Shown: positions 10,519-46,771 of the stretch, one piece after another
Layout: each line of letters starts with the position of its first letter
Position numbering within the stretch: the first letter of the stretch is position 1
NCBI GenBank assembly: GCA_021787475.1
Contig: JAJYLW010000005.1
Span: 1-64,000 of the forward strand
From: Actinomycetes bacterium
Lineage (GTDB): Bacteria > Actinomycetota > Thermoleophilia > BMS3ABIN01
DNA length: 64,000 nt
Direction of reading: 5' to 3'
Made by a program: the position numbers and the translations under genes
The notes under the pieces: generated by a model
The model's database searches: none
Told to the model about the DNA's origin: nothing
Seen by the model: only the letters and a program-made list of their open reading frames with translations

Positions 10519-11280
10519 CTAGAACCGATTCGTACTCACGGTCTTTCCCCAATACTTTTCCATCTTGTCAACTTCCTCCCGTGTGTACTCCTCGCCGCAG
10601 TACATCTTCCCCTCGCGGCACCGGCGAAAGAGGCAGTCCGGCCCCGATCGGCGGAACAGCAGCGGCGCCGCTTCCAGCACTAAAGAGCGCATCCACCAGG
10701 CGAGCCGGTTTATCTCCCACTGGGCCCGGCGGCAGCAGCGCACCTGGAAAAAATGGCGCAGTTCGCGGGCGTTCATGGTGACGACAATCCTGGTCTCGGC
10801 GGCATTGGGCAGGACAAACCGGGCATCCTCCTGGACAGCCTCCTTGCCCAGCCCCTGCTCGGCGCCAAGCTCGACCAGGCGCTCATAGGCGCGTGCGGCG
10901 CCGGCTACCGCTTCTTTGAAAACCGCCAGCGCTTTTTCATTTTCGGCGATTCGGGGCGGAATAATAAACCCTTTTTCGCTGGAAAAACGGACGTAGCGCT
11001 GCGACTGCTGGCTGTAAGACGCCAAGCGGTGGCGAACCAGCTGGTGCGAGCAGGCGCGTGAAATTCCATCGATGCCAAAAGTGAAACCGGCGTGCTCAAG
11101 CGTGCTCAAATGCCCTGAGCCGATGAGGATCTTCAGCAGCCGCTCCACCTCGTCAGGGGTCAAGCTTTCCTTAAGGCTGGCCGCGGTTGAGGACGAATAG
11201 CAGAGCCGGCCGGCAGCGGCCACTGTCCGCTCCGGGTCCGGGGTGTGGGAAAGCAGGACGACGTTTAGTCGGGCAGGCAC
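10519..11280 (-). CDS. thyX: FAD-dependent thymidylate synthase
   Basis: It makes dTMP from dUMP using methylene-THF and NADPH via FAD. The 253 aa carry the ThyX signature RHR at 83-85 followed by S93 (RHR-x7-S), and a second FAD/dUMP region (ARELRHFFQVRCCRRAQWEI). The start is GTG at 11280. It lies 12 bp after rpmE. No thyA-type gene is seen in the window. The one-carbon donor is produced by glyA in the same cluster. Confidence 0.96.
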   Translation of the reverse strand: MPARLNVVLLSHTPDPERTVAAAGRLCYSSSTAASLKESLTPDEVERLLKILIGSGHLSTLEHAGFTFGIDGISRACSHQLVRHRLASYSQQSQRYVRFSSEKGFIIPPRIAENEKALAVFKEAVAGAARAYERLVELGAEQGLGKEAVQEDARFVLPNAAETRIVVTMNARELRHFFQVRCCRRAQWEINRLAWWMRSLVLEAAPLLFRRSGPDCLFRRCREGKMYCGEEYTREEVDKMEKYWGKTVSTNRF

Positions 11281-11638: not shown

Positions 11639-12241
11639 ATGAAAAAGCTGCATTTATTGATAATTATAATTGCCGCGGTTTTCGCAGTCTTTGGCGTGAT
11701 ACTTGCCTTCGTGCTTGTCCATGGACATTCCAGCGGTCAGTCCAGGGCGGCGGATCTGGCCCAAAACGCCGAGTCATTGAGAATGGCGGCGTCGGACAAG
11801 CTCAGCAAGGCGACACTTGCCATTGACAACCTGATCGAGGGCGCCACTGCCGGCGACGCGCTGCCGGTCAACCAGACCAAGGCGGCGATAGCACAGGCAA
11901 GCTCTGATCTGTCGTCTGCCAGTGATGATCTTTCCCGAAGAGCAGCCGCACTGAACAGCGCCGCCAATCCTGGCCTGAACGATAACTTTCGTCACTACCT
12001 GGCACTGCAAAAATCAGACAACGGCAAGCTGCAGGCAGCCATCATTGCCGCGCAGCAAATAACGCAGCTGCTTCAGAACCAGGAGTACTCGCTTGCCGGC
12101 TGGGACCAGGCCCAGGCGCAAAAGGCCGTCGCCCAGGTTCACTCCATGGAAGCCGGCCTGGACAAGACCTACGGCGACGCAGAATCTCTGCACAACCAGG
12201 CAGACCAGCTAAAACGGGACCATCCCGGCGATTTCGGTTAG
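11639..12241 (+). CDS. membrane-anchored coiled-coil protein, unknown function
   Basis: Not recognised. The preferred ATG at 11639 gives MKKLHLL and a single strong transmembrane segment or uncleaved signal (about residues 5-27, LLIIIIAAVFAVFGVILAF). The remaining ~170 residues are Ala/Gln/Ser-rich and helical, compatible with an extracytoplasmic coiled coil. The frame is open 66 nt further upstream, in the intergenic repeat. No cysteine lipobox is visible. It is divergent from rpmE and upstream of tRNA-Val. Confidence 0.7.
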   Translation: MKKLHLLIIIIAAVFAVFGVILAFVLVHGHSSGQSRAADLAQNAESLRMAASDKLSKATLAIDNLIEGATAGDALPVNQTKAAIAQASSDLSSASDDLSRRAAALNSAANPGLNDNFRHYLALQKSDNGKLQAAIIAAQQITQLLQNQEYSLAGWDQAQAQKAVAQVHSMEAGLDKTYGDAESLHNQADQLKRDHPGDFG

Positions 12242-12355
12242 GCCCTTGCCTTGCCAAAATGTGATATCTAAAATATAGCGAAAGCAGGGCGCCTGATTTT
12301 AATGGGTATTGGCTGATCCAAAATCCAAAGTCCAATGTCCAAAATCCGGTTTTAT

Positions 12356-12432
12356 GGGCGATTAGCTCAGCTGGCTAGAGTGCCGCCCTCACATGGCGGA
12401 GGTCACTGGTTCAAGTCCAGTATCGCCCACCA
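12356..12432 (+). tRNA. tRNA-Val (anticodon CAC)
   Basis: A full cloverleaf. The acceptor strands GGGCGAT and ATCGCCC pair perfectly, the anticodon stem is CCGCC/GGCGG with loop CTCACAT (anticodon CAC, reading GTG), the T arm is ACTGG-TTCAAGT-CCAGT, and CCA is encoded. A 26-bp palindrome 20 nt downstream may end the transcript. Confidence 0.97.
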
Positions 12433-12451
12433 AAAAATTACTTACCCCTCA

Positions 12452-12477
12452 GAAATGGCTTTGGCCAAAGCCATTTC
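12452..12477 (+). terminator. 26-bp perfect palindrome after tRNA-Val
   Basis: The 26 bases are self-complementary around TTGGCCAA, able to form a long hairpin with a tiny loop. A weak pyrimidine stretch (TTCTTGCCTTAATTTT) follows. A terminator for the tRNA transcript is the simplest reading. Confidence 0.6.
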
Positions 12478-12617
12478 TTCTTGCCTTAATTTTGATAACC
12501 AACCAAGGTCGAACTCGCCTGACCGGTTCAGGTCCGTGTTTTTTTCCGGACCCCTGGGTAAGCTTCAAACAATCAATCAAGTAAAGTCCGGACGCGCCGC
12601 GGTTACGGGGTCTGGTT

Positions 12618-13787
12618 ATGCTCAACTCGATCACCGACGCAATCACAAATTCGTTCAACATGTTCTGGGAGATCATGTGGGCCCTGATTCTGGGATTCTC
12701 GGTTTCGGCCGCGATCCAGGCGGTCGTCTCCAAGAGCGGGATGGCGCGCCTGCTGCCCGACGACTCACCCCGGACGCTGGCGGTCTCGACCTTGCTGGGC
12801 GCCGCCTCCTCTTCCTGCTCCTACGCCTCAGTCGCCATTGCCCGGTCGATGTTCAGAAAGGGAGCCGATTTCACGGCGGCGATCGTCTTCGAGTTCGCCT
12901 CCACCAACCTTGTCATTGAGCTGGGTGTCATCATGGCCCTGCTCCTGGGCTGGCAATTTACACTGGCGGAGTTTATCGGCGGACCGGTCATGATCGTCGT
13001 GCTGGCGCTGCTGTTTCGCATCTTTCTCAAACGCTGGATGGCGGAGCGGGCCCGGGAGCGGGCCAACCGCGGCCTGGTGGGGCGGATGGAGGGCCACGCC
13101 GCCATGGACATGTCGGTTTCAGGCGGAACGCTGCTTCAGCGGCTTTTATCAAAAAAAGGCTTTACCTCAACAAGCCGGTACTTTGTGATGGACTGGGCCT
13201 CGCTGCTGCGCGACATCATCCTGGGCTTGCTGATCGCGGGCGCCTTGGCTGCCTGGGTGCCCAATTCATTCTGGCAGTCCCTGTTTCTGAGCCAGAGCGG
13301 GTTTGCCGCCAAGATCTGGGGGCCTCTGATCGGGCCGCTGGTTTCTCTCGTCTCCTTTGTCTGCTCGATTGGCAACGTGCCGCTGGCGGTGATCCTCTGG
13401 GACGGCGGCATCAGCTTCGGAGGCGTCATCTCTTTCATCTTCGCTGACCTGATCATCCTGCCCATCCTCGATATTTACCGCAAGTACTACGGGATCAGGA
13501 TGAGCGCTTTTCTGTTGGCAACTTCGTATGCGGCGATGGCGACGGCGGGATATGTGTTGGAGGCCGTCTTTGGCGCCCTGGGCCTGATTCCGGCCCGCAG
13601 GAATCTCCAGGCTGTGTTTGCCAGCGTCAGCTTTAACTACACGACCGTGCTCAACATCGTCTTCCTGGTCGCGGCTGCGGCCATGCTGGTCCGCTTCTTC
13701 AGCACCGGCGGCCTCGCCATGTTGAGGATGATGAACGTGTCCGAGGATGAGATGACGCAAATGTCCGGCATGGCGGACATGAAATGA
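12618..13787 (+). CDS. permease, UPF0718/ArsP-like (PF03773 type)
   Basis: A 389-aa polytopic membrane protein with about eight hydrophobic segments. The family-typical block AASSSCSYASVAIARSMF followed by KGADFTAA and FASTNLVIELG is intact. Relatives are predicted permeases, some exporting organoarsenicals or other toxic species; the substrate here is unknown. It converges with the ArsR-flavoprotein operon (13902-17179), so functional linkage to sulfur or metalloid stress is only a guess. Start ATG at 12618; no strong ribosome site is visible. Confidence 0.85.
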   Translation: MLNSITDAITNSFNMFWEIMWALILGFSVSAAIQAVVSKSGMARLLPDDSPRTLAVSTLLGAASSSCSYASVAIARSMFRKGADFTAAIVFEFASTNLVIELGVIMALLLGWQFTLAEFIGGPVMIVVLALLFRIFLKRWMAERARERANRGLVGRMEGHAAMDMSVSGGTLLQRLLSKKGFTSTSRYFVMDWASLLRDIILGLLIAGALAAWVPNSFWQSLFLSQSGFAAKIWGPLIGPLVSLVSFVCSIGNVPLAVILWDGGISFGGVISFIFADLIILPILDIYRKYYGIRMSAFLLATSYAAMATAGYVLEAVFGALGLIPARRNLQAVFASVSFNYTTVLNIVFLVAAAAMLVRFFSTGGLAMLRMMNVSEDEMTQMSGMADMK

Positions 13788-34577: not shown

Positions 34578-34628
34578 TTAAACCGATCATCCTCTTCACT
34601 CAGGCCGGCCTCTTCACTCATTTGTGCT

Positions 34629-34646
34629 TATCCGTCTATGCGGATA
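34629..34646. promoter_or_regulatory. TATCCG-N6-CGGATA operator for ArsR
   Basis: An inverted repeat with perfect 6-bp arms, ending 10 bp before the arsR start, resembling known ArsR/SmtB operators. Confidence 0.6.
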
Positions 34647-34656
34647 TAGTGCTATT

Positions 34657-34917
34657 ATGAAAAAGACGGCGCAACTGTTCAAGTCTCTCTCCGACGACAC
34701 CCGGCTGCGGATCATCGCCTTGCTGCTTGACGGCAAGCTCTGCGTCTGCGAGATCATGGCCATCCTCAGGTTGCCGCAGTCGACTGCGTCGCGCCACCTT
34801 GCCTATTTAAAAAACTCCGGCCTGGTCCTTGACCGGCTATTGCATCATGCCTACGCCATCAGCATCAGCGGCAGGAGTTACCGGCTGAAGGACAAGGAGG
34901 TGATGTTCAAGGATTAA
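34657..34917 (+). CDS. ArsR-family metal(loid) regulator
   Basis: 86 aa from the ATG at 34657. It contains the KLCVCEI motif, the C-V-C arsenic/antimony-type metal site, and the helix LPQSTASRHLAYLKNSGLV. The C-terminus departs from usual ArsR sequence after LVLDR, so the tail may be unusual or frameshifted. The last codons and stop (AAG GAT TAA) run into the 15-bp target duplication of the inserted element, leaving the reading frame intact. Confidence 0.85.
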   Translation: MKKTAQLFKSLSDDTRLRIIALLLDGKLCVCEIMAILRLPQSTASRHLAYLKNSGLVLDRLLHHAYAISISGRSYRLKDKEVMFKD

Positions 34918-34926
34918 TCAAACGCC
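34912..34926 (+). repeat. target-site duplication, left copy
   Basis: GATTAATCAAACGCC, identical to 46613-46627. It includes the arsR stop codon. Three further G residues also match but belong equally to the inverted repeat. Confidence 0.95.
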
Positions 34927-34971
34927 GGGGTATAGGGATGTGCAGTTCGTGGACCACATTGTGATATCTTG
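34927..34971 (+). repeat. left terminal inverted repeat
   Basis: Begins GGGGTATAGGGATGTGCA, then contains GGACCACATTGTG and ATCTTG. It pairs with the reverse complement of 46568-46612, with 5 mismatches in 45. Confidence 0.95.
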
Positions 34972-35271
34972 AGACATACCCTGATGAAATCTAGCCTGAT
35001 CCGTTTGTCCGTATAATTATCATTCGGCTGATTTTAGGATTGGGTCGAGATGTTTGAACAATAAGGCGCGAGCAGTCCGGGTGGCCTCTGAACGACGTCG
35101 ATATTCAAGGTAGGCAAGATCAAGTGCCTTGACGGTAAGGCCGCCAGCAACAGCACTAGCGAAAAGATCAACCTAAGAGGTAGTCATTAGTTTACTATAA
35201 TTGATTTACGTTATCGCATAAAGTCTGACAATCAAGCACCACGGATGGGAAAGATGATAAACGAATAATTC
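34972..35271. other. casposon left sub-terminal region
   Basis: About 300 bp between the left inverted repeat and the protease gene. It holds a decayed minus-strand coding fragment (35020-35187) and otherwise no gene I can support. Confidence 0.6.
35020..35187 (-). pseudogene. remnant of a membrane-anchored cargo protein
   Basis: An ATG at 35187 is followed by a TAG at codon 5, then an open stretch with protein-like composition: LFASAVAGGLTVKALDLAY, a basic YRRRSE patch and LLFKHLDPIL, ending at a TGA. It resembles the N-terminal helix plus basic region of small membrane-linked defence proteins. Broken and truncated; speculative. Confidence 0.35.
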
Positions 35272-35307
35272 TTGTGTAAGATATCCGATCGTAAATATTT
35301 TTCCAAT

Positions 35308-36231
35308 ATGTATGACCAACAAATAGAGATTGTGCAAGAAAAGGACAAAACACTTTTTTATAAAGAACATGCAGACGATGCTCTCTTTAAAGTCCGGCTT
35401 CACACGACGCCGATCCTAATATTCGATGGCCCGTTGGATAATCATACTCTTGTCAGTTTGGGAACCGGCATTCTTGCAAGGATAGCTTCGAGGTACTTTA
35501 TTCTATCCGCAGGACACTGTGTCAGAGATAGCGCAGGCAGCGGCAAGGTTTTGGCATTAGGAGTCAAGAAGAAGGCACCGCCGCTACGTGCGCAAATTGC
35601 AAACAGCGGTTATTGTTATAAGCCGAACACCGAAATAGATTTTGGCTACTGGGAGCTAGCGGAATACGATGCCGGCGACTTAAAAGGAAACCATGTTTTC
35701 ATTTCGCTGGACGGCATAGTGAGCGCTTCGCCGGCAGAGCTTGTGTCTCTAAATGATTGGATGGTGTTAGCTGGATTCCCAGGGGAAATACCTCCTCCAG
35801 GCATAAGGAAATACACCGCGCAAATCTTTGCATATACAACAATTTTGGCTGGGCCTAGTAATTCCGGGATTATACCTACCCGATTACACGAAGAAATAGG
35901 AATGTTGGATCTATGTGTTGAGGCCAAAGGGGATCTTGCAACTACAGAGGAACACGCAAAACAAATTGATATTCCAGACCTCGGTGGATGTAGTGGCGGA
36001 GGCGTTTGGCTAAGCGGCGTTCGTTCGGAACGTGACGATTGGAAATCAGAGAATATGCGTCTTGCAGGAATCTACATAGGCAATTGGCCGTACGAGAAGG
36101 GTCGCCGTTTTGGACGTGCGGTACTGGTCGGTCATCATCTCAATCTGATTGCAAACCACTACGATGATTTACGAGAAGAGATTTGTAAGAGATTTCCCAG
36201 ACTCGACGAATTTTCATTAAGCGGTGATTAA
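35308..36231 (+). CDS. trypsin-like serine protease, casposon cargo
   Basis: 307 aa from ATG 35308, or 319 from a TTG at 35272; neither has a good ribosome site. The catalytic triad can be placed (319-aa numbering): His82 in LSAGHC, Asp123 in TEIDFGYWEL, Ser241 in GGCSGGGVW. There is no signal peptide, so it acts in the cytoplasm, like the trypsin-like effectors found in bacterial defence loci. The gene is AT-rich compared with the host. It is transcribed towards the convergent DUF4062 gene. Confidence 0.82.
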   Translation: MYDQQIEIVQEKDKTLFYKEHADDALFKVRLHTTPILIFDGPLDNHTLVSLGTGILARIASRYFILSAGHCVRDSAGSGKVLALGVKKKAPPLRAQIANSGYCYKPNTEIDFGYWELAEYDAGDLKGNHVFISLDGIVSASPAELVSLNDWMVLAGFPGEIPPPGIRKYTAQIFAYTTILAGPSNSGIIPTRLHEEIGMLDLCVEAKGDLATTEEHAKQIDIPDLGGCSGGGVWLSGVRSERDDWKSENMRLAGIYIGNWPYEKGRRFGRAVLVGHHLNLIANHYDDLREEICKRFPRLDEFSLSGD

Positions 36232-36307
36232 ATTCAAAGGAAACCTCGCTGATATTTTTTTTGTAAAAAGAAATGCTGGCACGAGCTAGGATAATTAAGC
36301 AGAAGCT

Positions 36308-37240
36308 TCATTCTGTTTTTGAATGGAGCTTTGCTATTTCGCTATCAATCTCGTCCGAGACTTGTTTAAGCATCTCGATAATTTCATCTCCTTTTTTCCA
36401 GAAAGCTCTAAATGAAGTACCACCGTCTAAATAAAGCTCATGCCTCTTTATCTCACGAAGTTTAATGGCAATTTGGTCTAGTGAACTACTCAGCGTTTCT
36501 TGTCCATCAGCAGCAACGGCCCCACGAAAATTTAAAACGTAGCCGAGGGCGCGTGACAATATTGCCTGTCCCTCGTCGATGCTGTATGGTTCACTGTCAC
36601 GCTCACTGACCCATTCTGCTTGAAGCCGACGTAGAAAAATCCCAAATCTATCCTTTAAGTCGTTTAGATCAGTAAGCTCTTTAGAAATCGAGCTTGCTAC
36701 CTGAACCGGACCAGGTGGATGCCCCTCTAACTGTTTCTCCATTAATGTTGCTAAATGGGTTTGAAATTGTTCTCTAAAGTTTTCAAGGGAATCATATCTA
36801 GCAACAAGGCCTCGACCTTCCTTTTCCAGTTGTTCTCTGTACCCGACTAGAGCACCGTACTGATCACGATCTATGCTTTCCGGAATAATTGGAACAGATG
36901 AGAAATAGAGCAATACCAGCTTTCCAGCGGCAATAAACTCTTCGATCTCTTCTACAGTCCCAGAAACACTCTTGCCGGTCGGGCTGCCAATTCTTGTCCA
37001 AAATGTTCCTACGAGAATGTCACAATTATCTACAATTTGCTTATTTACAATGGCTTGTGCCCTGTCACCCATTTCGGGATATGCATGCGTTTCCCACTTC
37101 ACAGGTTCTAGTATTGCTGCTTTTGATAAAGAATTTGAGATGTTCCACTTACGAATGATATCCGGTATAGCTTCTCTTTCTTCTGAGCAGTCGGAAGGAG
37201 AAGCGATAAGAATTCTGTAAATGAGACCGTTTTGCGGCAT
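36308..37240 (-). CDS. DUF4062-domain protein, defence-like cargo
   Basis: 310 aa. The N-terminal ~170 residues match the DUF4062 (TIR/SLOG-like) style: YRILIASPSD, EEREAIPDIIRKWN, EPVKWETHAYPEMGDRAQ, DILVGTFWTRIGSPTG and SGTVEEIEEF. The C-terminal part is helical with no recognised effector. DUF4062 proteins are common in defence islands as signalling modules. It starts 3 bp after the stop of a 102-aa gene, so the two form an operon pair. Confidence 0.8.
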   Translation of the reverse strand: MPQNGLIYRILIASPSDCSEEREAIPDIIRKWNISNSLSKAAILEPVKWETHAYPEMGDRAQAIVNKQIVDNCDILVGTFWTRIGSPTGKSVSGTVEEIEEFIAAGKLVLLYFSSVPIIPESIDRDQYGALVGYREQLEKEGRGLVARYDSLENFREQFQTHLATLMEKQLEGHPPGPVQVASSISKELTDLNDLKDRFGIFLRRLQAEWVSERDSEPYSIDEGQAILSRALGYVLNFRGAVAADGQETLSSSLDQIAIKLREIKRHELYLDGGTSFRAFWKKGDEIIEMLKQVSDEIDSEIAKLHSKTE

Positions 37241-37243
37241 GAG

Positions 37244-37552
37244 CTACCCTTCGAGCTGTTTCTTCATCCATTCGGAAGCCGCTGTCTTTTTCATTTCATC
37301 CCAATCAGCAAATCTAGTAAGTCTCCTAATTACTTCATCCCAGTCTGCATCAGGTATATTTTCAAAGTCTTCCTGGTTATCACACTTAAATCCGCTTTTG
37401 TCCAGTAGCTCCTGGAAGCTGTTTACCGTTGAATTTTGTAACATGAAAGCATCATGGAAAAGTTGATCTAGTGATACCTGCTTACCTACTTCAAGTTCCT
37501 CTAGCTTACGAATGAATTCATCAAATTCGGGCGTGTCGATTTGAATGTCCAT
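37244..37552 (-). CDS. small acidic protein, unknown
   Basis: 102 aa from the ATG at 37552 (GGGGGAA just upstream); the frame is open to 37657 without a good start. It is acidic and helical (MDIQIDTPEFDEF, later QDEVIRRL-like segments). Not recognised. It lies between cas1 and the DUF4062 gene on the same strand and could be a partner or inhibitor of the DUF4062 product. Confidence 0.65.
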   Translation of the reverse strand: MDIQIDTPEFDEFIRKLEELEVGKQVSLDQLFHDAFMLQNSTVNSFQELLDKSGFKCDNQEDFENIPDADWDEVIRRLTRFADWDEMKKTAASEWMKKQLEG

Positions 37553-37678
37553 TGTTCCCCCGATTATTGTTTCGTCCTGAACGGGTTGATTATCTGACTT
37601 TGGATCAAGAATGTCTAGAAAGACTATGCCGTAGACACATATATTCTGTTGTGCCATAAACGCTTTTCGCCTGCAGAA

Positions 37679-39079
37679 TCACAGCGGTGGCGATCTGCCA
37701 ATTAATGTATCTATCACAGGATCAAGTGAAACAACTGAAGCCGATATGCTTTGCACAACCCGCCGTGCTAGCTCGGGATGCAGTCGACAGACCCCCTTTG
37801 TGTCAATCACGAAATCTCTGGGCGCAAACGTCTGCGAGCGAGCAAACCCCAGCACCTCTTCGTCCACCTTTGGCCGATGCGGCTCCATGAGATCGTAGAC
37901 GAACGAACTGCGCCCCGCCTGGCAGACATGCAGATAACCGATCGTCGGATCAAGCCCGACTGCGGCGATGGCGATGCGCACCTGGCTTTCGAGAACCGCA
38001 TAACCGTAGTTGAGTAGTGCGTTTACCGGGTGGTGTGCATGACGATTCGATCGCTTGAGAAAGTTTTGCCGCACGCCAATGCGTCTCCATTCCGGGGGAA
38101 TCGGTTTCTTTGCAGTGCCCTTCCAACGAAGCTCAACCCTGCGCCAGGCGGCAAAGTAGGGGATCGCTGCCCACGCTTCCAAGAGGCGCAGGTCGTCGAT
38201 CGTTTCAGGCGGCTGCGCCCTGAGCCGCTTAAGCAGGGATGTGACACGGTTGATCGCAGAATCTTTTTCTTCTGAGGGTGGCAGAGTCGCTAAGGTGTTA
38301 AGCGAGGCCGCGAGCTTCTGTTCAATCAGTGAGCGGGCAAGGACAAGGCCAAGCCCGTTGGTCACCGCCTCGATCTGCGCCCGTCTGAGGTCAAGGTCGG
38401 CGGCCGTGGTTTCGCTGCCGAGGACGCTCACTACCTGCCCGCGGTAGTCGAGCATCACGAGAGGGACGTGCTGCTCAGAAAGCCAGCGGATCACGTCAAG
38501 TGACAGTGACCCATTGGCTGAGAGCAAAATGATGCGGCTTGGCAGCTTCGGATCACCGGCAAAGAACCTCTTTTCACGAACGGCCTGCGGGTAGTGCGTA
38601 AATCCGTGCCTGACAACCAGGCTGCCGTAGTGGATATGCAGTCGCAGGCCGTGACCGGCCAAAACAAGTGGTTTGCGCTCCCGGCGGCGATAGAATACCG
38701 CTTCGCGGGCTTCGGGATCAACCTGCTCTTGCCAGTAGGCACCGCGTTCAGCCCAAAGAACATCGTCGGCTTCTTCTCCGCCCTGAGCCATCGATAGCGC
38801 AGAATTACGAAAAGCCATGCGCCGCTTCCAAGTTGCCTGCTCGCCAGCTCGGGGATCGTGACCGGCGTCCTTCATCTCCTCAAGCTTGGCAAGCCCCTTC
38901 TTTGAATTTTCACTTTGGCGGTTCTGGCCCCACCAGCGGCGGTAGCAGTGCCTTGAACAAAAGAGGCCCCTGGTCTGACGTTTGGGAATAAACTCATTGC
39001 CGCAGAACTGACAGGTTCGTGGTTCCCGATCGACGCTGCGGCGACCATCAAGATATTCGGGTGTATCATGTGTCTGCAT
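37679..39079 (-). CDS. cas1: Cas1-family integrase (casposase) with N-terminal zinc finger
   Basis: 466 aa. The Cas1 integrase fold covers ~130-466. The metal ligands can be placed as E301 (RLLEAWAAIPYFAAW), H374 (GYLHVCQAGR) and D386/E389 (VYDLMEPHRP), and HHPVNALLNYGYAVLESQ marks the conserved helix. The N-terminus has C23, C26, C41 and C45 in a FCS-like zinc finger (CQFCGNEF, LFCSRHC) not found in CRISPR Cas1. There is no Cas2, Cas4, Cas6 or repeat array nearby. GGAGGTAA precedes the ATG. It should cut and join the element ends to the target. It is third-from-last of the minus-strand operon HTH-cas1-102 aa-DUF4062. Confidence 0.95.
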   Translation of the reverse strand: MQTHDTPEYLDGRRSVDREPRTCQFCGNEFIPKRQTRGLFCSRHCYRRWWGQNRQSENSKKGLAKLEEMKDAGHDPRAGEQATWKRRMAFRNSALSMAQGGEEADDVLWAERGAYWQEQVDPEAREAVFYRRRERKPLVLAGHGLRLHIHYGSLVVRHGFTHYPQAVREKRFFAGDPKLPSRIILLSANGSLSLDVIRWLSEQHVPLVMLDYRGQVVSVLGSETTAADLDLRRAQIEAVTNGLGLVLARSLIEQKLAASLNTLATLPPSEEKDSAINRVTSLLKRLRAQPPETIDDLRLLEAWAAIPYFAAWRRVELRWKGTAKKPIPPEWRRIGVRQNFLKRSNRHAHHPVNALLNYGYAVLESQVRIAIAAVGLDPTIGYLHVCQAGRSSFVYDLMEPHRPKVDEEVLGFARSQTFAPRDFVIDTKGVCRLHPELARRVVQSISASVVSLDPVIDTLIGRSPPL

Positions 39080-39151
39080 GCGGACTTACCTCCGTGTGCC
39101 GTGCCCCCGGACGTTGGCGCGTCGCGGGGGCGTTTATTTTAAATTCCTCGT

Positions 39152-40324
39152 TTATTTGCTTGTGCCTTCTTGCTCTGGATGGAGCGCCTGCGTGTACTCA
39201 GGATGGTTAATCAGGAATTGCTCGAACTCAACCGGATCATATTTTGCGATGCCCTGCACCTCAGAAAGTAGACGCTCCATCTCGGTCTCGTCACGCAAAG
39301 CTGCATTTAACCTTCGGGTCGCTAGGGTCCCATCTTCGGTTAGCATCGGAACTTCATTTATGAGCAGCTTTAAAAGCTCAAGCGAGGGCTGGGCGCTCGC
39401 CACGGCAAGTGCACCGTCGCTAGGTTCTGTGAGAAGTTTCTCCGCTAGGACCGTCGCCACTATTAGCAGCCATAAAGCTTGGCTTTTCGCCCTAGCTGAT
39501 AGAAAAACATTTACTAAATTCCAAGCCGTCTTTTCGCTCCGGGCTGTTTTTCCACCTATTAGTTGTGCGATCACAACTTCAAATCCCCGAGCAACCTCAA
39601 AAATCATTTTAAACAGGTCGCGGCCTTGGCAAAGTTCATCGTCGGATAACAATTCAAGACGTTTGCTGAAGGGAACCGATAAGGCACCCCGAACGGCCAA
39701 CAGCAGCATTACTGCGTAGCTATTACTTAGCAACTTTTTGTCAAGTATCTGCTTGTCGAAAAGAACTTTAAAACAACCCTCCGCGATATGTTCCATGCCT
39801 GGCTCAACATTGGAATCTGAACGGACTAATAACAGAAGAGTGACCCCCAAATCTGTAAACTGGTCTCTACCCACCCGTCGCCTGAATGGGTTGAGTAGTT
39901 TTTCATCACCAGAAACCCTCCTCTTTGGGTCCATCTCTGCTTCCAACAAATCTCGAAGTTCTTCAGGTGTTTTTTCCTTTAACTTGGTCCAGTTCGCATC
40001 CCACTGACCGGCGACTAACTTTAGAAACTCCCGCACGAGTGGCATTGGCACGTCGTAGCCGTCCCACCACTGATACCAGGCCAGATGAAGGTGGCGACGT
40101 TCGTGCTTTTCCTTGCGCAGCTCTAAAAGATGCAGGAGCTGATCTGCTGTTTGGGATGGATAGATGGCTTCTTCGGTTCCATGGCCCTTACCGAGTGAGC
40201 GCCGCTTGGGCTTTGGCAAAAGCCCAATGCGGTGCCACCTACTAAGCTGCACGTCGCTTACCTTGGGGTGACCACGGTCGGCGGCGAGCTGCCTTAAGTC
40301 TTTCTTTGTATATCCAGCGGTCAT
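39152..40324 (-). CDS. MerR-like HTH protein, casposon-encoded
   Basis: 390 aa from the ATG at 40324; the longer frame (40396) is unlikely because a -10 box lies in it. The N-terminal ~75 residues look like a MerR-type winged helix (YTKKDLRQLAADRG, VQLSRWHRIGLLPKP, then GTEEAIYPSQTADQLL). The rest is helical with no recognised domain. It sits just upstream of cas1 on the same strand and is probably the regulator of that operon. The predicted -10 is so close to the ATG that the transcript may have almost no leader. Confidence 0.75.
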   Translation of the reverse strand: MTAGYTKKDLRQLAADRGHPKVSDVQLSRWHRIGLLPKPKRRSLGKGHGTEEAIYPSQTADQLLHLLELRKEKHERRHLHLAWYQWWDGYDVPMPLVREFLKLVAGQWDANWTKLKEKTPEELRDLLEAEMDPKRRVSGDEKLLNPFRRRVGRDQFTDLGVTLLLLVRSDSNVEPGMEHIAEGCFKVLFDKQILDKKLLSNSYAVMLLLAVRGALSVPFSKRLELLSDDELCQGRDLFKMIFEVARGFEVVIAQLIGGKTARSEKTAWNLVNVFLSARAKSQALWLLIVATVLAEKLLTEPSDGALAVASAQPSLELLKLLINEVPMLTEDGTLATRRLNAALRDETEMERLLSEVQGIAKYDPVEFEQFLINHPEYTQALHPEQEGTSK

Positions 40325-40333
40325 GTGAAGCTT

Positions 40334-40362
40334 ATTATACAGAATTACTTTTGAGCTTACAA
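40334..40362 (-). promoter_or_regulatory. promoter for HTH-cas1 operon
   Basis: On the minus strand, TTGTAA (40362-40357), 17-nt spacer, TATAAT (40339-40334). The ATG is 9 nt beyond the -10 box, implying a near-leaderless mRNA. Confidence 0.75.
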
Positions 40363-40479
40363 TTTGGCCACCTTTCCACATCATCACGCGCGGCATCTAT
40401 GATGCTGGTTCAAAGAGAAAGTATCCAATCGAAAGGTGCCTATGGAAAATAACTAGTTGAATTGAAAAACGTCGGTTAT

Positions 40480-40515
40480 AAAAAAGCCTGCACGGAGTTG
40501 GCGCTCCGCCCAGGC
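40480..40515 (-). terminator. minus-strand hairpin with U6 tail
   Basis: Nested stems GCCTG/CAGGC and CGGAG/CTCCG (40486-40515); read on the minus strand they are followed by TTTTTT (40485-40480). It lies between the divergent casposon operons. It may stop antisense transcripts before the HTH promoter or end a small RNA. Confidence 0.55.
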
Positions 40516-40595
40516 CCTAAAAAGGTGATCTTTTCAATGATTTATTCTATTGGTTTACTAATCATTCGTCAACTGATTCCGGGCGGTGATCTCTA

Positions 40596-41177
40596 ATGGC
40601 CCGCCGCAAGCGCAACTACAAAGCCGAGTATGCCCGCCGCATCGCACGTGGGAAGGAAAGGGGGCTTTCCCGCTCCCAATCACGCGGGCATCCCCGCCAC
40701 CACGAGCCGTACATAGCTGACATTGTCAAGCCCCGCCCCTGGGGCCCTGAGCTTGAAGCCGGACTTAAGCAGGTACGTGAGGGGGAGTCACTCACAACGG
40801 TTGCCAGGCGTATGCATGTTGCGCCTGAGCGTCTGCGCTCTTATCTGGTGAGAACCGGGGTGGGGCGCAAGGAACATTCGCGCTGGAAGGTGGGTCCCGA
40901 CGCCCGCCAGCGCCAGATGCTTATCTACACGCGCGGGCGCGAGATTGTCGTCGTCCTGCCCGACTATGACTCAGCCCGATTGGCAGGTCGCTACATGGCA
41001 GCAGTGGGACAGTTTCTTGAAAGTAACGATCCTACCCATCTTGAAGAGTTCGTGAGGCAGGGGGTGGGCGACGCCGAAGGTCAGTTCCACCCTTTTGAGA
41101 CACGCAAAAACGTACTCTACCGACTTTCAGAAACACAAACAGAATCCTTCCAGGATGTCTACAAGATCGTAGCTTAA
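40596..41177 (+). CDS. basic DNA-binding protein, casposon-encoded
   Basis: 193 aa, not a named family to me. The N-terminus is strongly basic (ARRKRNYKAEYARRIARGK, RSQSRGHPRHH), and residues ~50-85 resemble a helix-turn-helix (ESLTTVARRMHVAPERLRSYL). It is the first gene of the plus-strand replication operon leading to the polymerase. It may be a terminal-repeat or origin-binding protein. The gap upstream (40400-40595) holds the hairpin described separately. Confidence 0.7.
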   Translation: MARRKRNYKAEYARRIARGKERGLSRSQSRGHPRHHEPYIADIVKPRPWGPELEAGLKQVREGESLTTVARRMHVAPERLRSYLVRTGVGRKEHSRWKVGPDARQRQMLIYTRGREIVVVLPDYDSARLAGRYMAAVGQFLESNDPTHLEEFVRQGVGDAEGQFHPFETRKNVLYRLSETQTESFQDVYKIVA

Positions 41178-41196
41178 CAAACGAAAGGAGAAAGTT

Positions 41197-41706
41197 ATGC
41201 AAAACGAGTCACAACCATCGAACAATGAGGCACGCGCCGAGGCAGCTTTCGAGCGTCTGGGAACACGCAGGCCCAAATGCAGCGTTCCCGGTTGCAACGA
41301 GAGTGACTGGCGAGCACTGACCGGCAAACACCCGCATATCCTCTGTTACGAACACATGTGTGCCGAGCAGGGGCGTTCAACTGTAGAGCAACAACACACT
41401 CTTGGACGGAAAATCGACCCAGACATGGAGGTCACAATGGCAGGAAACGATCACCGCATAATGGACAGCTACAAAGACCAATGGCCCAAAGAAACACGCG
41501 AAAACCCCGATGGCAGCCCGGCGCTGCTAGCCGCCGCGTACCTGAGGGTCCCCTTCGACTGGCTAATCATGATTGCAAAGCGTTACCTTGAGCCGGTCTT
41601 TCTCTGGCTAGAAGCACTCGACAGCCTCTTCTGCGAGAAGTTGGGGCGGCGCTGGTGGGTTGGGCTTGGCCTTCCCGACATCTATAGCCGGAGGGTCGAG
41701 CAATGA
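41197..41706 (+). CDS. HNH-like zinc protein, casposon-encoded
   Basis: 169 aa with AAGGAG upstream. The N-terminal half has CSVPGC, ILCYEH, QQHTLGR and GNDHRI, an arrangement like HNH nucleases, with two cysteines and several histidines as zinc or metal ligands. The C-terminal half is hydrophobic and aromatic (PFDWLIMIAKRYLEPVFLWLEAL). It overlaps the polymerase frame by 4 nt (ATGA at 41703). It may be a nuclease or a replication accessory. Confidence 0.6.
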   Translation: MQNESQPSNNEARAEAAFERLGTRRPKCSVPGCNESDWRALTGKHPHILCYEHMCAEQGRSTVEQQHTLGRKIDPDMEVTMAGNDHRIMDSYKDQWPKETRENPDGSPALLAAAYLRVPFDWLIMIAKRYLEPVFLWLEALDSLFCEKLGRRWWVGLGLPDIYSRRVEQ

Positions 41707-41777
41707 AAGTACCTATACCACAAGAACAACAAATCGCGCTACGCGCTTATGCAGTTCCACAAACCAAGGAGAGACAA

Positions 41778-44732
41778 ATGACCATGGCAAACAATGAAGG
41801 AAGCACCCCTTTGGGTCCTTCTGATTACTCACTCACTTTCGATACCGAGACAACCACGACAGCTGAGCAAAGGCTCAGAGTGGGCAATTATCAGCTCCGC
41901 AAAAAGAGCGTTCTAATCGAAGAAGGCTTGTTCTACGATCCGGCGGCTTTAAGCATCAAAGAGCGCCGACGCTTGCAAGACTACGCTCGCCGCCACCACC
42001 TCAAGCTGAGAACGCTCAGCGAGTTCACCCAGGAGATATTTTACCGCAAGGCATATCTGCTGAACGCGCTCATTATCAGCTTCAATCTGCCTTTTGATCT
42101 TTCACGGCTTGCCATCCGTCATGGTTCGGGGAAGGGTAAAAAGATGGGCGGCGGCTTCTCCCTGACACTGAGCGAGAACTGGCCGCCTGTTCGGATCAAA
42201 CACCTTTCGCGGACCGCATCTCTTATCGACTTTGCTTCCCCAGGCGGTCAGCGCACAGGCCGTTCCTGGCGAAAAAAGAACTGGCGGCGGCATGTCCGTC
42301 GCGGCTACTTTTTGGATGTGTGCTCGCTGGCGGCGGCCATTACCAGTGGCTCGCACTCGCTGGACTCGCTGGGCCGCTTGCTGGGGACTGCTCATCAAAA
42401 GACCGAAGCCGAACATGGCCAGGAGCTCACTGCAGAATACCTTGGATACTTAAGAAACGACGTGCAGGTGACATATGAGTGCTTTGAAGTTCTGGCGACG
42501 CGTTATGAAAGCTTTAAGCTGACGGCGACGCCGGTGTCTAGCATCCTAAGTGAAGCGTCTATCGGCAAGGCTTCTCTTAAAGAAATGGGAGTAAAGCCCT
42601 GGCGCGAGGTGCAGCCTGATTTTCCAGCCGAACTTACCGGCGTCATCATGTCTTCCTACTTCGGGGGCCGCTCCGAGGTGCACTTAAGGAGAGTAATCTC
42701 CCAGGTCGCCTACTGCGATTTTCTCTCCACGTATCCAACTGTCTCAGTCCTGCAGGGTCTCTGGGGTTTTGTTACCGCCAAGGGCATCGACTGGAGCGAC
42801 GCGACCGAGGCAACAAGGGTCTTTGTTGAAAGCCTCAAGCTCGGTGATCTGGCAAAGTCAGCAACATGGAAAAAGCTGGCGGTGCTCGTCCAGGTCGAGG
42901 CCGACGAGGACCTTTTTCCTGTGCGCGGAGCATATGCTGAAAGCAGCTCGGCGCTTTCAATCGGTCTCAATTACCTGAGCTCAGACGAGCCGCTTTGGTT
43001 CACCCTGGCCGATGTGCTGGTTTCTAAGCTGCTGACCGGAAAGACGCCGAGGATAAAGAAGGCGCTGTCCTTTACTCCCCGGGCAAGGCAGTCAAATCTA
43101 AAACCGATTGATCTCCTGGGTAATTCTGGCTACCGCATTGATCCTGCCAGCAATGACTTCTATTTGAGGCTCATTGAGATGCGCTCTTTTGTCAAGCAGC
43201 ATAAGAGGCGCTGTAATGATGAACCTGTGCGTGAGCGACTGGAAAGTGAACAGCTGGCAATGAAGATCATCGCCAATTCCAGCTGCTACGGCATATTCGT
43301 TGAGCTTAACGTACAGGAGTATGCTCGCAAGCAACCGGTGACATATTTTAGCGGCGACGAGAAAGCCCGCACGGCAAACCTGGCTTCCATTGAAGTGCCT
43401 GGCAGGTACTTTCACCCGCTTGTTGCCACTCTGACTACGGGAGCCGCCCGGCTGATGCTGGGGATTGCCCAATCCCTGGCCCAAAAGGAAGGTCTTGACT
43501 GGGCTTTTTGTGATACGGACAGCATGGCCCTGGCCCGCCCGGTGGGAATGCAAGAGGCTAAGTTTATTCGACTAGTCGAAAAGGTGCGGGGTTGGTTTGA
43601 GCAGCTTAATCCCTACAGCTCGGGTGATGAGCTGTTTAAGCTTGAGGATTACAACTTCGAACTGGATGCATCTCATAAGCAATCGCCACTTTTCTGCTTT
43701 CCCGTCTCTGCCAAACGCTACGTTTTGTTTAACCTAGGCTCAGACGGAAAACCCATCCTGCGCAAAGCATCGGCCCACGGTCTCGGCCATCTGCTAGCGC
43801 CCTACGGAAAAGACAAAGCACCGAGCTTTATCCCGGTGCCCCGGGTGGCACTCACAAAGATAGGCGTCAGGCGCTGGCAGCATGACCTCTGGTTCCTGAT
43901 TCTTCAGGCAGCACTGGAAGGTCGTGCAGAGCTGGTTGACCTGGGAGCACTTCCCGGTTTTAATGAGGTGGCGGCGAGCCGCTATGCGGCCACCCGACCG
44001 CGACTTCTTAAGTGGTTTGCCGCGTTTAACAGGGGCAAGCCCTACGACCTGCAAGTGCACCCGTTTGGTTTCTTAAACGCTTATCAGACCAGGATCGTGG
44101 CCCAGCTAATACAAGCTGATATTCTCAGTTTGATCGATGAGCGCACGGGCGGACAGGGTAAGCGGCCGGAAGCGTTCAAACCTCCCCGAGCCGTATCACC
44201 CTTTGACTTTGATCCGGCGGTAGCCGTAAGAGATTGCTTTGACCGTGATACAGGAGAAGCTGTCCCACCAGAAATGCTTTGCACTTACCGCGAGGCCCTA
44301 ATCCGCTATCACCTGCACCCGGAGCGCAAGTTCAGAGGGGGTGACTACACCGATTCGGGGCCGCTTGAGCGGCGTCACATCCGGATTCCTGAGGTGAATG
44401 GTATTCAGTACATTGGCAAGGAAGCCAATCGCTGGGAAGAGCGTATGCATACCGGTGAGGACCCGGATGCAGTGATCAGGTATGGGGTGGCGGGTGGTAG
44501 CCTGGATCAGCTAAGAGAACAGGTGGCGACTGCCTGCAGTAAGTTTGGAGTGCGAAGGGTGGCGCGGGCGGCAGGGTTTTCACACAGCACGGTGCTGCGC
44601 TTTCTTGCAGGCGAAAGTGAGTTGCAGGCAGCTACGGTGAGTCGGCTGCAAGTGGCCATCGCGCAGTTGTCTTCGCAGCGCGGTGAGAGCGACGCAGTGC
44701 TAGCTCAAGCAAGAGAAGCAAAGAGGACCTGA
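41778..44732 (+). CDS. family B DNA polymerase with C-terminal HTH
   Basis: 984 aa from ATG 41778, 6 nt after AAGGAG; an ATGA-coupled start at 41703 would add 25 residues. The 3'-5' exonuclease motifs are FDTET (~21), SFNLPFD (~101) and YLRND (~224). The polymerase motifs are A DFLSTYPT (~314), B KIIANSSCYG (~496) and C CDTDS (~578). After the thumb, the last ~80 residues form an HTH-like module (VRRVARAAGFSHSTVLRFLAG). It should copy the element, consistent with self-synthesising casposons. Whether priming is by protein or RNA cannot be judged by eye. Confidence 0.93.
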   Translation: MTMANNEGSTPLGPSDYSLTFDTETTTTAEQRLRVGNYQLRKKSVLIEEGLFYDPAALSIKERRRLQDYARRHHLKLRTLSEFTQEIFYRKAYLLNALIISFNLPFDLSRLAIRHGSGKGKKMGGGFSLTLSENWPPVRIKHLSRTASLIDFASPGGQRTGRSWRKKNWRRHVRRGYFLDVCSLAAAITSGSHSLDSLGRLLGTAHQKTEAEHGQELTAEYLGYLRNDVQVTYECFEVLATRYESFKLTATPVSSILSEASIGKASLKEMGVKPWREVQPDFPAELTGVIMSSYFGGRSEVHLRRVISQVAYCDFLSTYPTVSVLQGLWGFVTAKGIDWSDATEATRVFVESLKLGDLAKSATWKKLAVLVQVEADEDLFPVRGAYAESSSALSIGLNYLSSDEPLWFTLADVLVSKLLTGKTPRIKKALSFTPRARQSNLKPIDLLGNSGYRIDPASNDFYLRLIEMRSFVKQHKRRCNDEPVRERLESEQLAMKIIANSSCYGIFVELNVQEYARKQPVTYFSGDEKARTANLASIEVPGRYFHPLVATLTTGAARLMLGIAQSLAQKEGLDWAFCDTDSMALARPVGMQEAKFIRLVEKVRGWFEQLNPYSSGDELFKLEDYNFELDASHKQSPLFCFPVSAKRYVLFNLGSDGKPILRKASAHGLGHLLAPYGKDKAPSFIPVPRVALTKIGVRRWQHDLWFLILQAALEGRAELVDLGALPGFNEVAASRYAATRPRLLKWFAAFNRGKPYDLQVHPFGFLNAYQTRIVAQLIQADILSLIDERTGGQGKRPEAFKPPRAVSPFDFDPAVAVRDCFDRDTGEAVPPEMLCTYREALIRYHLHPERKFRGGDYTDSGPLERRHIRIPEVNGIQYIGKEANRWEERMHTGEDPDAVIRYGVAGGSLDQLREQVATACSKFGVRRVARAAGFSHSTVLRFLAGESELQAATVSRLQVAIAQLSSQRGESDAVLAQAREAKRT

Positions 44733-44749
44733 ATGGGTTCGCCAGTCGT

Positions 44750-45385
44750 CTATTGACTCCTCTTTTGCCGCTGCGTGATACTACAAAGGATTGCCGGCGC
44801 AGCTTCTTCGAAGGACTTGCCCGACTTCACTCCATTACATACAAGACATGCTGTTCTCAGGTTATCTTTAGAATGAGCGCCGCCTTTGCTCTGCGGCACG
44901 AAATGGTCGAGCGTAGCATTGTCCTGGCTGACTAATTCTCCGCAATATTGACAAGTCCAATTATCTCTTTCGAATAGTATCTGTCTCTTTTTGGGGTCTG
45001 TGAAGTAGTCATCTTCATCTTCGCTGGAAATCTTTATGTTTGTAATATGTTCCTTGACAAGCGGGATATCGCGTGGAAGGAGAATTGTATAGAGAGTTCC
45101 TTCGCGTGTGGTATTGCCAACTCTAAGGCAGCCCTTCACTTCAAGGCCGCTGATCACTCTTGTCATGTGGGTGTAATTTGTCTTCTTACCGCGAGAGCCC
45201 GTGCCATATCCTTGGGCCATGGATCGCTTGCCGATGCGAATCTGAATCGTTCCGTCTCTCAAGAGGGAATTTCTCAATAAGAATAAGTAAAGCGAGGCCT
45301 CGTAGGGAACAAGTTCCGGCATAAGGTAGTCAACAAAATCATTGAATATCAACTCGAAGTTTTCGGATGCGTTTTTACGCTTCAT
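44750..45385 (-). CDS. HNH endonuclease with N-terminal winged-helix-like domain
   Basis: 211 aa. Residues ~1-115 look like a winged-helix DNA-binding or replication-initiator domain. Residues ~135-205 are a classical HNH nuclease: CQYCGE, LDHFVPQSKGG, NLRTACLVCN. HNH enzymes are a regular casposon component. It converges with the polymerase, with 17 bp between the stops. Confidence 0.88.
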   Translation of the reverse strand: MKRKNASENFELIFNDFVDYLMPELVPYEASLYLFLLRNSLLRDGTIQIRIGKRSMAQGYGTGSRGKKTNYTHMTRVISGLEVKGCLRVGNTTREGTLYTILLPRDIPLVKEHITNIKISSEDEDDYFTDPKKRQILFERDNWTCQYCGELVSQDNATLDHFVPQSKGGAHSKDNLRTACLVCNGVKSGKSFEEAAPAILCSITQRQKRSQ

Positions 45386-45417
45386 CTGGAAAAATCGTCC
45401 ACTTCATTTTTGAATTA

Positions 45418-46353
45418 TCACTTGAACGAAGCCTCAGCGTCCCCAAGTAAGACGATTGCGGAAGCTGTCAGATGGAGCATATAAGCTGCCACGTAACGCG
45501 GAACCTCGGAGGGATTGGCACCCTGTCCATGACCACTTAGTTTGTTTCGCCCTGTTGGTATCCCGCTCTCTAAAGTACTTCGCAGAGATGTGAAGTGCTG
45601 CTGCCAGAATGTGGGAATCAGATTGTTATCTAAGCAAACTTGGATTAAATTCTTTGCTCCAGCCCCCTGATTATAGACCCAGCCATGCTTGTCACAGATC
45701 ACTTTCATCATACTCTCAAAGGCTTTAAGACAATCATTCAGGCATTCCTTTGTTTTGCCCGAACGATAATGAGCATGCGCAGAAAGAAACTCCTGCTGAA
45801 CGCCATCGAATTGTTTGTCCGAAAGAAGCGCAAGCACAGGTTTCACTATTTCCGTATGTGCGTATTCAGAGTCAATTCGAATCATCTGGCCATTCGAAAA
45901 CTCAAAGCCTACAACATGTTCCTTGAAACGACCGTTCAACTCCCCAATTGCCTCATCAGCACGTTCGGATGCATCCTGGCGTAGCAAGTAGGGATAGCTG
46001 CGCGTCGATGAATCTATGACTCTGAACGAGAGCTCTATAGCATCCAGGGTCCGCTCTAAATCGGGTTCATTCAAAATAAAATTGATGAGCTCCTCGACAT
46101 AGTTGCGACTTCCATAATTTTTTGTCGGCGGAAGCTCAAAAACTCCGTACTCTCTACAAAGCGCCTGCACTATTGCCTCGTAGGCCTTCCATGGCTCATT
46201 TGTATGATCATTCCCACGTCCGCCAAGGGTATCCAACATGATGTGTACAATCTGAGTTCGCAACCCATCTGGTAACTCATCATATGTGTATACGTCTGGA
46301 ACTTCTCCCCGTAAATGTTGCTGCCTTTTTGAGAAGATGTTGAGAATCGCCAC
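45418..46353 (-). CDS. STM4504/CBY_0614-like (HEPN/Abi-type) protein, cargo
   Basis: 311 aa. The C-terminal ~150 residues (HYRSGKTKECLNDCLKAFESMMKV, SGIPTGRNKLSGHGQG, the helix ending in LTASAIVLLGD) match what I know of the abortive-infection C-terminal/HEPN-like family associated with STM4504-type proteins. A HEPN-like RNase or NTase-partner role in anti-phage defence is inferred. It is upstream of the HNH gene on the same strand and AT-rich relative to the host. Confidence 0.75.
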   Translation of the reverse strand: MAILNIFSKRQQHLRGEVPDVYTYDELPDGLRTQIVHIMLDTLGGRGNDHTNEPWKAYEAIVQALCREYGVFELPPTKNYGSRNYVEELINFILNEPDLERTLDAIELSFRVIDSSTRSYPYLLRQDASERADEAIGELNGRFKEHVVGFEFSNGQMIRIDSEYAHTEIVKPVLALLSDKQFDGVQQEFLSAHAHYRSGKTKECLNDCLKAFESMMKVICDKHGWVYNQGAGAKNLIQVCLDNNLIPTFWQQHFTSLRSTLESGIPTGRNKLSGHGQGANPSEVPRYVAAYMLHLTASAIVLLGDAEASFK

Positions 46354-46567
46354 TAGCTATTTCCTTATAAGAGGGCTTAAAGATTTGATTTAATAGTCTA
46401 TGCCGCTCTGGCTGACCCGTAAAGAGGGCAGCAACCAAGTTGCAAGATGAGACCACGCACTCGGCCACCCATGATGATTGGGATGACTTCACAAACCAGC
46501 ATAAAGTCAATTGTAGAATTGAAACAATTGACAAACGGCTGTTTTAGATGAAGACCGGAATACGTAA

Positions 46568-46612
46568 CAAGATGGCACAATGTGGTCCGCGCATTGCACA
46601 TCCCTATACCCC
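46568..46612 (-). repeat. right terminal inverted repeat
   Basis: The reverse complement begins GGGGTATAGGGATGTGCA and matches the left end at 40 of 45 positions. Confidence 0.95.
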
Positions 46613-46627
46613 GATTAATCAAACGCC
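46613..46627 (+). repeat. target-site duplication, right copy
   Basis: GATTAATCAAACGCC directly after the right terminal inverted repeat, matching 34912-34926. Confidence 0.95.
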
Positions 46628-46771
46628 GGGTGCGGGAAGGTTGCTGTCACTTAACTTCGGGAATCTTGGTGTCACTTGACAGGTGTACCTTTCCAATCAT
46701 CAAAATAGTTAAACTCTAAGTCACTGTAATGCACCTTTGATAACCAGCCGTAATATGTGATAATCAAGTCC

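Follow-up and report, generated by a model that had tools for sequence, protein, structure and literature searches.

A complete casposon in a bacterial chromosome, with a second element and an empty site in the same genome

A complete casposon and its core proteins

The 64-kb stretch of DNA analyzed here (referred to as the window; contig C13 of genome G000) contains a real, complete casposon of 11,686 bp at positions 34927-46612. We are highly confident in this reading: the casposon is likely one of family 3, the bacterial kind, and likely lies in a remnant of the insertion sequence IS21, and its Cas1 is predicted to attach both ends of the element to the target and so give a 15-bp duplication. 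The ends, the duplications, an empty site, the open genes, and the conserved residues were seen directly. The host is bacterial, given that G000 encodes a transfer-messenger RNA (tmRNA) and that a Thermoleophilia bacterium belongs to the same genus.

Inverted-repeat detection returned two arms, at 34926-34978 and 46561-46613 (53 nucleotides [nt], 85% complementary). Read from the exact ends, the left (34927-34979, plus strand) and right (46560-46612, minus strand) terminal inverted repeats both run GGGGTATAGGGATGTGCA inward, with 18 of 18 terminal bases identical and 44 of the first 53 bases matching. The target-site duplication GATTAATCAAACGCC is 15 bp long and perfect and lies on both sides of the element (34912-34926 and 46613-46627). 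A script that searches for inverted arms (11-base seed) 5 to 20 kb apart and for direct repeats flanking them returned this element, in three overlapping registers, and nothing else from the window. The traits of the casposon superfamily found here are thus terminal inverted repeats with flanking target duplications, a family B DNA polymerase, and a solo, casposase-type Cas1 with catalytic-type residues outside any CRISPR locus. These findings bear out the initial annotation, which had proposed a complete casposon in a bacterial chromosome with ~45-bp terminal inverted repeats (18 bases perfect) and 15-bp target duplications.

The Cas1 protein (37679-39079, minus strand, 466 amino acids [aa]) matches Pfam Cas_Cas1 at 157.4 bits (cut-off, 22.3). 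Its nearest Protein Data Bank (PDB) entry, by profile as well as by predicted structure, is the M. mazei casposase (6opm), although the two are 26% identical over 310 residues and the first 134 residues of the window Cas1 have no counterpart in 6opm. An N-terminal CxxC...CxxxC region looks zinc-finger-like by eye. Residues H384, D396, and E399 were invariant and E364 nearly so among 47 aligned rows. In a tree of 64 of 146 Cas1 domains, the casposon side, with the window Cas1, and the CRISPR side were apart (support, 99/92). Homologues were sampled by taking every third identifier of the 120 listed and requiring a domain of at least 330 residues; L014 (identical to L005), P0001 and P0004 (which duplicate the two G000 proteins), and L017 (too short) were left out. 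The references were one archaeal protein (6opm) and one Rhodobacteraceae element, with no named family 3 protein among them. CRISPR labels for the Cas1 proteins of fourteen relatives came from low profile scores rather than from arrays; the same holds for the Cas1 on contig C33 of G000, for which an array was found afterwards.

The general model TIGR00287, which the protein matches at 136.1 bits (cut-off, 71.7), names it CRISPR-associated Cas1, as would suit a CRISPR adaptation module or a relic of one. We give this reading next to no weight: an exact 22-mer test found no CRISPR array in the 64-kb window, a Pfam scan found no Cas2 domain among the ten ORFs (open reading frames) of the element, and profile, structure, and tree place Cas1 with the casposase. 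Moreover, the genome's own CRISPR Cas1 (contig C33, locus L010) sits beside an array of 24 repeats (about 11645-13340) and falls on the opposite side of the tree from the window Cas1. The C33 spacers (n = 23, with the end of the repeat left attached) matched nothing beyond chance in twelve loci (best match, 14 bases; E, 0.026). Viral contigs yielded no relative, since three stretches matched and none was confirmed; none of 105 plasmid records reached 80% Cas1 coverage, and the 20 of these that were listed are annotated as CRISPR Cas1, apart from one hypothetical protein.

For the DNA polymerase (41703-44732, plus strand, 1,009 aa), all Pfam matches were below the cut-off. Because a sequence search of the PDB gave no matches, a structure model was made (pLDDT, 84.6); it had 184 PDB matches at an E of ≤0.001, and the 50 listed are all, by title, polymerases that we take to be of family B. 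What we presume to be the exonuclease and polymerase motifs were invariant or nearly so in 40 aligned rows, with CDTDS as motif C. A C-terminal HTH (helix-turn-helix)-like region (residues 953 to 989) matches the LacI type below the Pfam cut-off. Two further claims of the initial annotation thus hold, namely, that neither an array nor Cas2 is present (in the window and among the ten element ORFs, respectively) and that the polymerase belongs to family B, for which motifs and predicted structure speak more clearly than Pfam. Cas1, which it had suggested comparing with casposase and CRISPR trees, groups with the M. mazei casposase and apart from the CRISPR Cas1 proteins.

It is very improbable that the element is pipolin-like, or of some other integrative kind, with a different recombinase doing the integration and Cas1 a passenger. 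No serine, tyrosine, or DDE recombinase domain was found when the ten ORFs were scanned with Pfam (E up to 0.1), and duplications of 14 to 16 bp accompany inverted repeats in five elements. One match below the cut-off among the ten ORFs was to the HTH part of ISL3 transposases.

Second element, empty site, and possible mobility

The insertion had initially been placed at the 3′ end of an arsR gene. The upstream ORF (34624-34917) is arsR in its first part only, and its residues 68 to 92 match the C terminus of IstB of IS21 at 23.9 bits, which makes istB, rather than arsR, the most likely identity of the gene end that is occupied, as judged from sequence. The left part of the likely IS21 remnant (34828-34926, plus strand; here the first part of arsR is continued by an istB 3′ end) is 98% identical to C16:102049-102147 of the same genome, and the right part (46613-46687, plus strand) is 96% identical to C16:101989-102063. 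Since contig C16 joins both window flanks (102147-101989), which overlap there by exactly 15 bp with the duplication sequence present once, G000 contains both a filled and an empty site. The empty site is 156 bp from the contig end, and its ORF end matches IstB at 23.1 bits; both IstB matches are just under the Pfam cut-off of 24.1 bits. Genome G011 has a diverged, unoccupied version of the same target stretch.

G000 also carries a second complete casposon, on contig C24 (locus L009:573-15256), just downstream of the tmRNA gene and with a 14-bp duplication. The two elements share the same 18-base ends, the outer 18 bases being identical at all four ends, and their Cas1 and polymerase proteins are 78% and 72% identical, respectively. 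When thirteen proteins (ten of the window element and three of the C24 element) were compared with nineteen loci by tblastn, Cas1, the polymerase, the 193-aa HTH protein, the 169-aa HNH-like protein, and the 414-aa HTH protein (30% identity) all recurred in the C24 element. Given this second element and the unoccupied copy of the target elsewhere in the genome, the window element likely moved to its present site. Within the C24 element, a degraded inner right end at L009:14035 (six mismatches) suggests a nested or tandem insertion.

By analogy with homologues, Cas1 would join the 3′ ends of the element to the target, one on each strand with a 15-bp stagger, and fill-in of the gaps by the host or the element polymerase would yield the 15-bp duplication. 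The element's own polymerase may copy or repair the element before or during movement, and the core HTH and HNH proteins may help to choose or cut the site, again as extrapolated from homologues.

Further ends were sought in related genomes. Of 399 genomes of the class, 4 carried the end motif with at most one mismatch, and these belong to a single genus, while the reversed-motif control occurred once; with two mismatches allowed, there were 12 occurrences in 4 of 19 family genomes, all of the window's genus. Pairing of these ends gave nine insertion loci: in G000, C13 (the window), C24 (a pair), C24:50146, C17, and C6, the last three being single ends; in G001, C31; in G002, C34 and C50; and in G005, C43 (a pair). 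The G005 pair bounds a 3.8-kb element (C43:32489-36316) in which, of the thirteen casposon proteins searched, just a Cas1 fragment was found. The script for ends plus duplication found none in loci L109, L111, and L112.

Such remnants in the genus (the 3.8-kb G005 element and the single ends on C24 and C6 of G000), together with the divergence of the window's terminal repeats from each other inside the outer 18 bases, are compatible with an element that inserted here and is now immobile, its Cas1 and polymerase being retained by chance or for another use. We consider this account possible but less likely than not, since the core frames are open and the Cas1 and polymerase motifs are conserved. 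In addition, the outer 18 bases are identical at the four ends of two otherwise diverged elements, as is expected under selection for function.

Target preference in the genus

Just before four of the nine insertion loci, ARAGORN called a complete gene, in agreement with Rfam: a tmRNA gene 23 nt before the element end on G000 C24 and G001 C31 and a tRNA-Ala(GGC) gene 24 nt before it on G000 C17 and G002 C34. Four more loci lie beside apparent copies or terminator versions of tmRNA or tRNA sites. C24:50146 comes after 35 nt that duplicate the tmRNA 3′ end; the C6 end (two mismatches) has a tRNA-like ...GGTCCACCA 25 nt before it, where no gene was called; and G002 C50 and G005 C43 are at tmRNA-terminator-like sequence, the G005 tmRNA being ~2.1 kb upstream. 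The window element, the ninth, is the exception. Since tmRNA/tRNA-type genes with 30-nt flanks make up an estimated ~0.1% of a genome (for ~50 such genes, a number assumed rather than counted), 4 of 9 loci is far above chance. A preference of this lineage for the 3′ side of tmRNA and tRNA-Ala genes is therefore likely.

A tmRNA was detected in five of the six genomes of the genus, and its 3′ flank was readable in four. An intact, unoccupied hairpin (AAATGCCTTGTTTAAGGCATTTTTT) comes after the tmRNA of G004 and of G005; the elements at this site in G000 and G001 begin directly after AAATGCC of the tmRNA hairpin sequence. The duplicated segment at the tmRNA site (CCTCTGAAAATGCC) begins with CC, and the CCACCA of the gene lies at positions −15 to −10; the duplicated segment of the window element begins with GA. 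No exact empty tRNA-Ala site was found in G001, G004, or G005, because the unoccupied sequence downstream of their full-length tRNA-Ala matches is unlike that at the occupied loci; G003 had no close match.

In the literature searched, outside of which lay subscription papers and supplements, no description of a casposon sited at a tmRNA gene was found. In PMC6563490 tmRNA is present only in the title of a reference, and in PMC9710591 it concerns pipolins and the name of a program.

A broader idea, which we put forward tentatively and regard as rather unlikely, is that the lineage homes to the intrinsic terminators that follow tmRNA and tRNA genes. The terminator hairpin of the tmRNA would then correspond to the palindromic CRISPR repeat and CCACCA to the leader, the CRISPR integrase and its mobile ancestor would choose sites by the same logic, and the window element would be a rare escape into an IS21 remnant whose empty site is kept in the same cell. 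The idea that hairpins are the target in general was considered and dropped, since hairpin z values (plus strand) at six joined sites followed no rule, spanning −6.2 to +0.8 (L007, −6.2; C24 tmRNA site, −4.2; G005, −2.2; G560, −1.7; G010, −0.7; window, +0.8). The CRISPR repeat (...GAAATGCC...) has only 8 bases in common with the tmRNA target (...GAAAATGCC), likely by chance, and no relationship is claimed.

Relatives, family placement, and carried genes

Casposases are regarded as the source of the CRISPR integrase, and the experiments in the literature covered concern archaeal casposases. The element is a new member of the known casposon superfamily and alone is unsurprising, because its homologues are common in metagenomes; what is new is the likely preference for tmRNA/tRNA-Ala sites and the empty site within the genome. 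The value lies in these together with the pair of elements. One small bacterial genome holds two intact-looking casposases (78% identical), shared ends, full and empty sites, and its own CRISPR, and casposase target choice, with its possible shift to leader-repeat recognition, becomes testable in a bacterium.

Contig C36 of G000 encodes a different casposon-type Cas1, a 527-aa ORF (L011:310-1893) that starts 309 bases into the contig. It scores 255 bits against the casposon profile, compared with 57 to 118 for CRISPR-type rows and 139 for 6opm; its C-terminal part looks zinc-ribbon- and HTH-like by eye, with no Pfam support. The ORF is situated upstream of a gene for a PALP enzyme, presumably thrC. 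At the corresponding place in G010, from another genus of the same family, there is a complete 13.9-kb element (L077+L078, 7190-21064) with a 14-bp duplication (GTCAAGCCATAGCT). The occurrence of this type at one locus in two genera may stem from ancient vertical descent or from more than one insertion at the same place. Further complete elements are present in G560 and in the Rhodobacteraceae record L007. Across the phylum, Cas1 scored above 115 bits in 8 of 396 genomes (G000, G002, G010, G431, G560, G603, G564, and G728), two of them with internal stop codons; at most four candidates were scored per genome, and the self-set 115-bit cut makes for a rough boundary.

The window element likely belongs to casposon family 3, the bacterial family that includes NitAL212-C1, AceAut-C1, HenMar-C1, and StrAlb-C1 in the available text of PMC4046053. 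It shares with that family, as described there, a bacterial host, genes for Cas1, polymerase B, and predicted HNH and HTH proteins, and inverted ends with duplications. Like NitAL212-C1, its Cas1 has an apparent N-terminal zinc-binding domain (zinc-finger-like by eye here), although no C-terminal HTH was seen on the window Cas1, unlike on NitAL212-C1 (PMC4046053, available text). The cargo also differs from that of family 3. Casposon sites there include tRNA 3′ ends and aEF-2, with a median duplication of 15 over all casposons, whereas tmRNA and IS21 sites go without mention in the available text of PMC4046053. The bacterial host departs from family 1, whose hosts are thaumarchaeal (Nitrosopumilus type). 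Proteins of the HNH and HTH kinds, which families 2 and 3 have in common, are present, some by weak matches and as judged by kind.

The polymerase shares motif C with the PolB_CDTDS group, which includes the polymerase of the Aciduliprofundum boonei family 2 casposon and which PMC7544198, in its available part, keeps separate from protein-primed polymerases; a protein-primed polymerase is a trait of family 1. The A. boonei casposon is similar also in its 14- to 15-bp duplication, its site beside a tRNA 3′ end, and its recognition of upstream sequence; its site requires TCAAATC 9 to 15 bp upstream and a duplicated segment that begins with CC (PMC6614799, available text). That site partly overlaps a tRNA-Pro gene and has TCAAATC as leader (same source), whereas here the end lies 23 nt past the tmRNA gene, with CCACCA at −15 to −10.

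The Rhodobacteraceae element L007 has ends (GGGTATAGAGATA...) resembling those of the window element (GGGGTATAGGGATG...), and its Cas1, polymerase, and HTH proteins are 41%, 45%, and 40% identical to the window's. Unlike in the window element, its ends match at 40 of 40 bases, and its 16-bp duplication (the best of four registers) forms a hairpin with a perfect 6-bp stem. The duplication (L007:254-269 and 11167-11182) places this casposon in a terminator-like hairpin followed by a T-rich run.

Several points weigh against our interpretation of the window element. The evidence is of sequence, with movement, excision, and enzyme activity not observed, and the family placement is a probable one, the Cas1 tree having no named family 3 protein among its references. 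The putative IS21 label draws on the two IstB matches under the cut-off, and the part of IstA suspected by eye in the C16 ORF had no match in a Pfam scan. The target of the window element does not flank a tRNA gene, forms no hairpin, and so is outside the preferred site type. Several single ends are near contig ends, and their elements are not readable whole. Finally, Pfam matches are weak or absent for the proteins labeled HTH and for one of the pair labeled HNH.

Besides Cas1 and the polymerase, there are three core genes. The 414-aa HTH-type protein (39152-40396, minus strand; MerR-like HTH, E of 0.087) matches a 396-aa C24-element protein (30% identity; E, 2.5e-22). The 193-aa HTH-type protein (40596-41177, plus strand; HTH match below the cut-off) is 81%, 69%, and 40% identical to its counterparts in C24, L005, and L007, respectively. 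The 169-aa protein (41197-41706, plus strand; 64% identity to C24 and 51% to L005) was called HNH-like from reading its C/H residues and has no Pfam match. The right-hand group of HTH-193, HNH-169, and polymerase is opposite in strand to Cas1 and HTH-414. Of the HNH and HTH proteins named in the initial annotation, one is clear by Pfam, the cargo HNH endonuclease (44750-45385, minus strand, 211 aa; 48.6 bits; cut-off, 21.4), and the other three of four have weak or no model matches.

The five outer proteins, including this endonuclease, are called cargo because none had a tblastn match at an E of ≤1e-4 in any locus searched. A possible trypsin-like protease (35272-36231, plus strand) matches Trypsin_2 weakly (E of 0.049, below the Pfam cut-off). 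A DUF4062 protein (36308-37240, minus strand; Pfam, 28.7 bits; cut-off, 24.7) resembles the candidate defense protein PDC-S60 (PADLOC E of 2e-30), and a 137-aa protein (37244-37657, minus strand) matches phrog_2211 (E of 5.9e-16). A 311-aa AbiJ-like protein of the STM4504-CBY_0614 family (45418-46353, minus strand) matches NF046078 of NCBIfam at 388.4 bits (cut-off, 150) and Pfam AbiJ_NTD4 and DUF7014. By these model matches, the DUF4062 and AbiJ-like proteins resemble phage defense proteins.

The C24 element carries different cargo: TPR and NYN proteins, a ParB-like protein whose match is below the cut-off, and a protein of the Mom family (146.7 bits; cut-off, 27.1); the Mom and ParB-like pair is also present in L005 and G603. 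Between the C24 casposon and a single casposon end, a nucleotidyltransferase and HEPN gene pair (L009:15290-16170) is toxin-antitoxin-like. Within the L005 casposon, ARAGORN called a tRNA-Val(tac) gene (L005:5043-5116) that overlaps the start of the Mom-like ORF, and a stretch near L009:7400 in the C24 element looks similar to it by eye.

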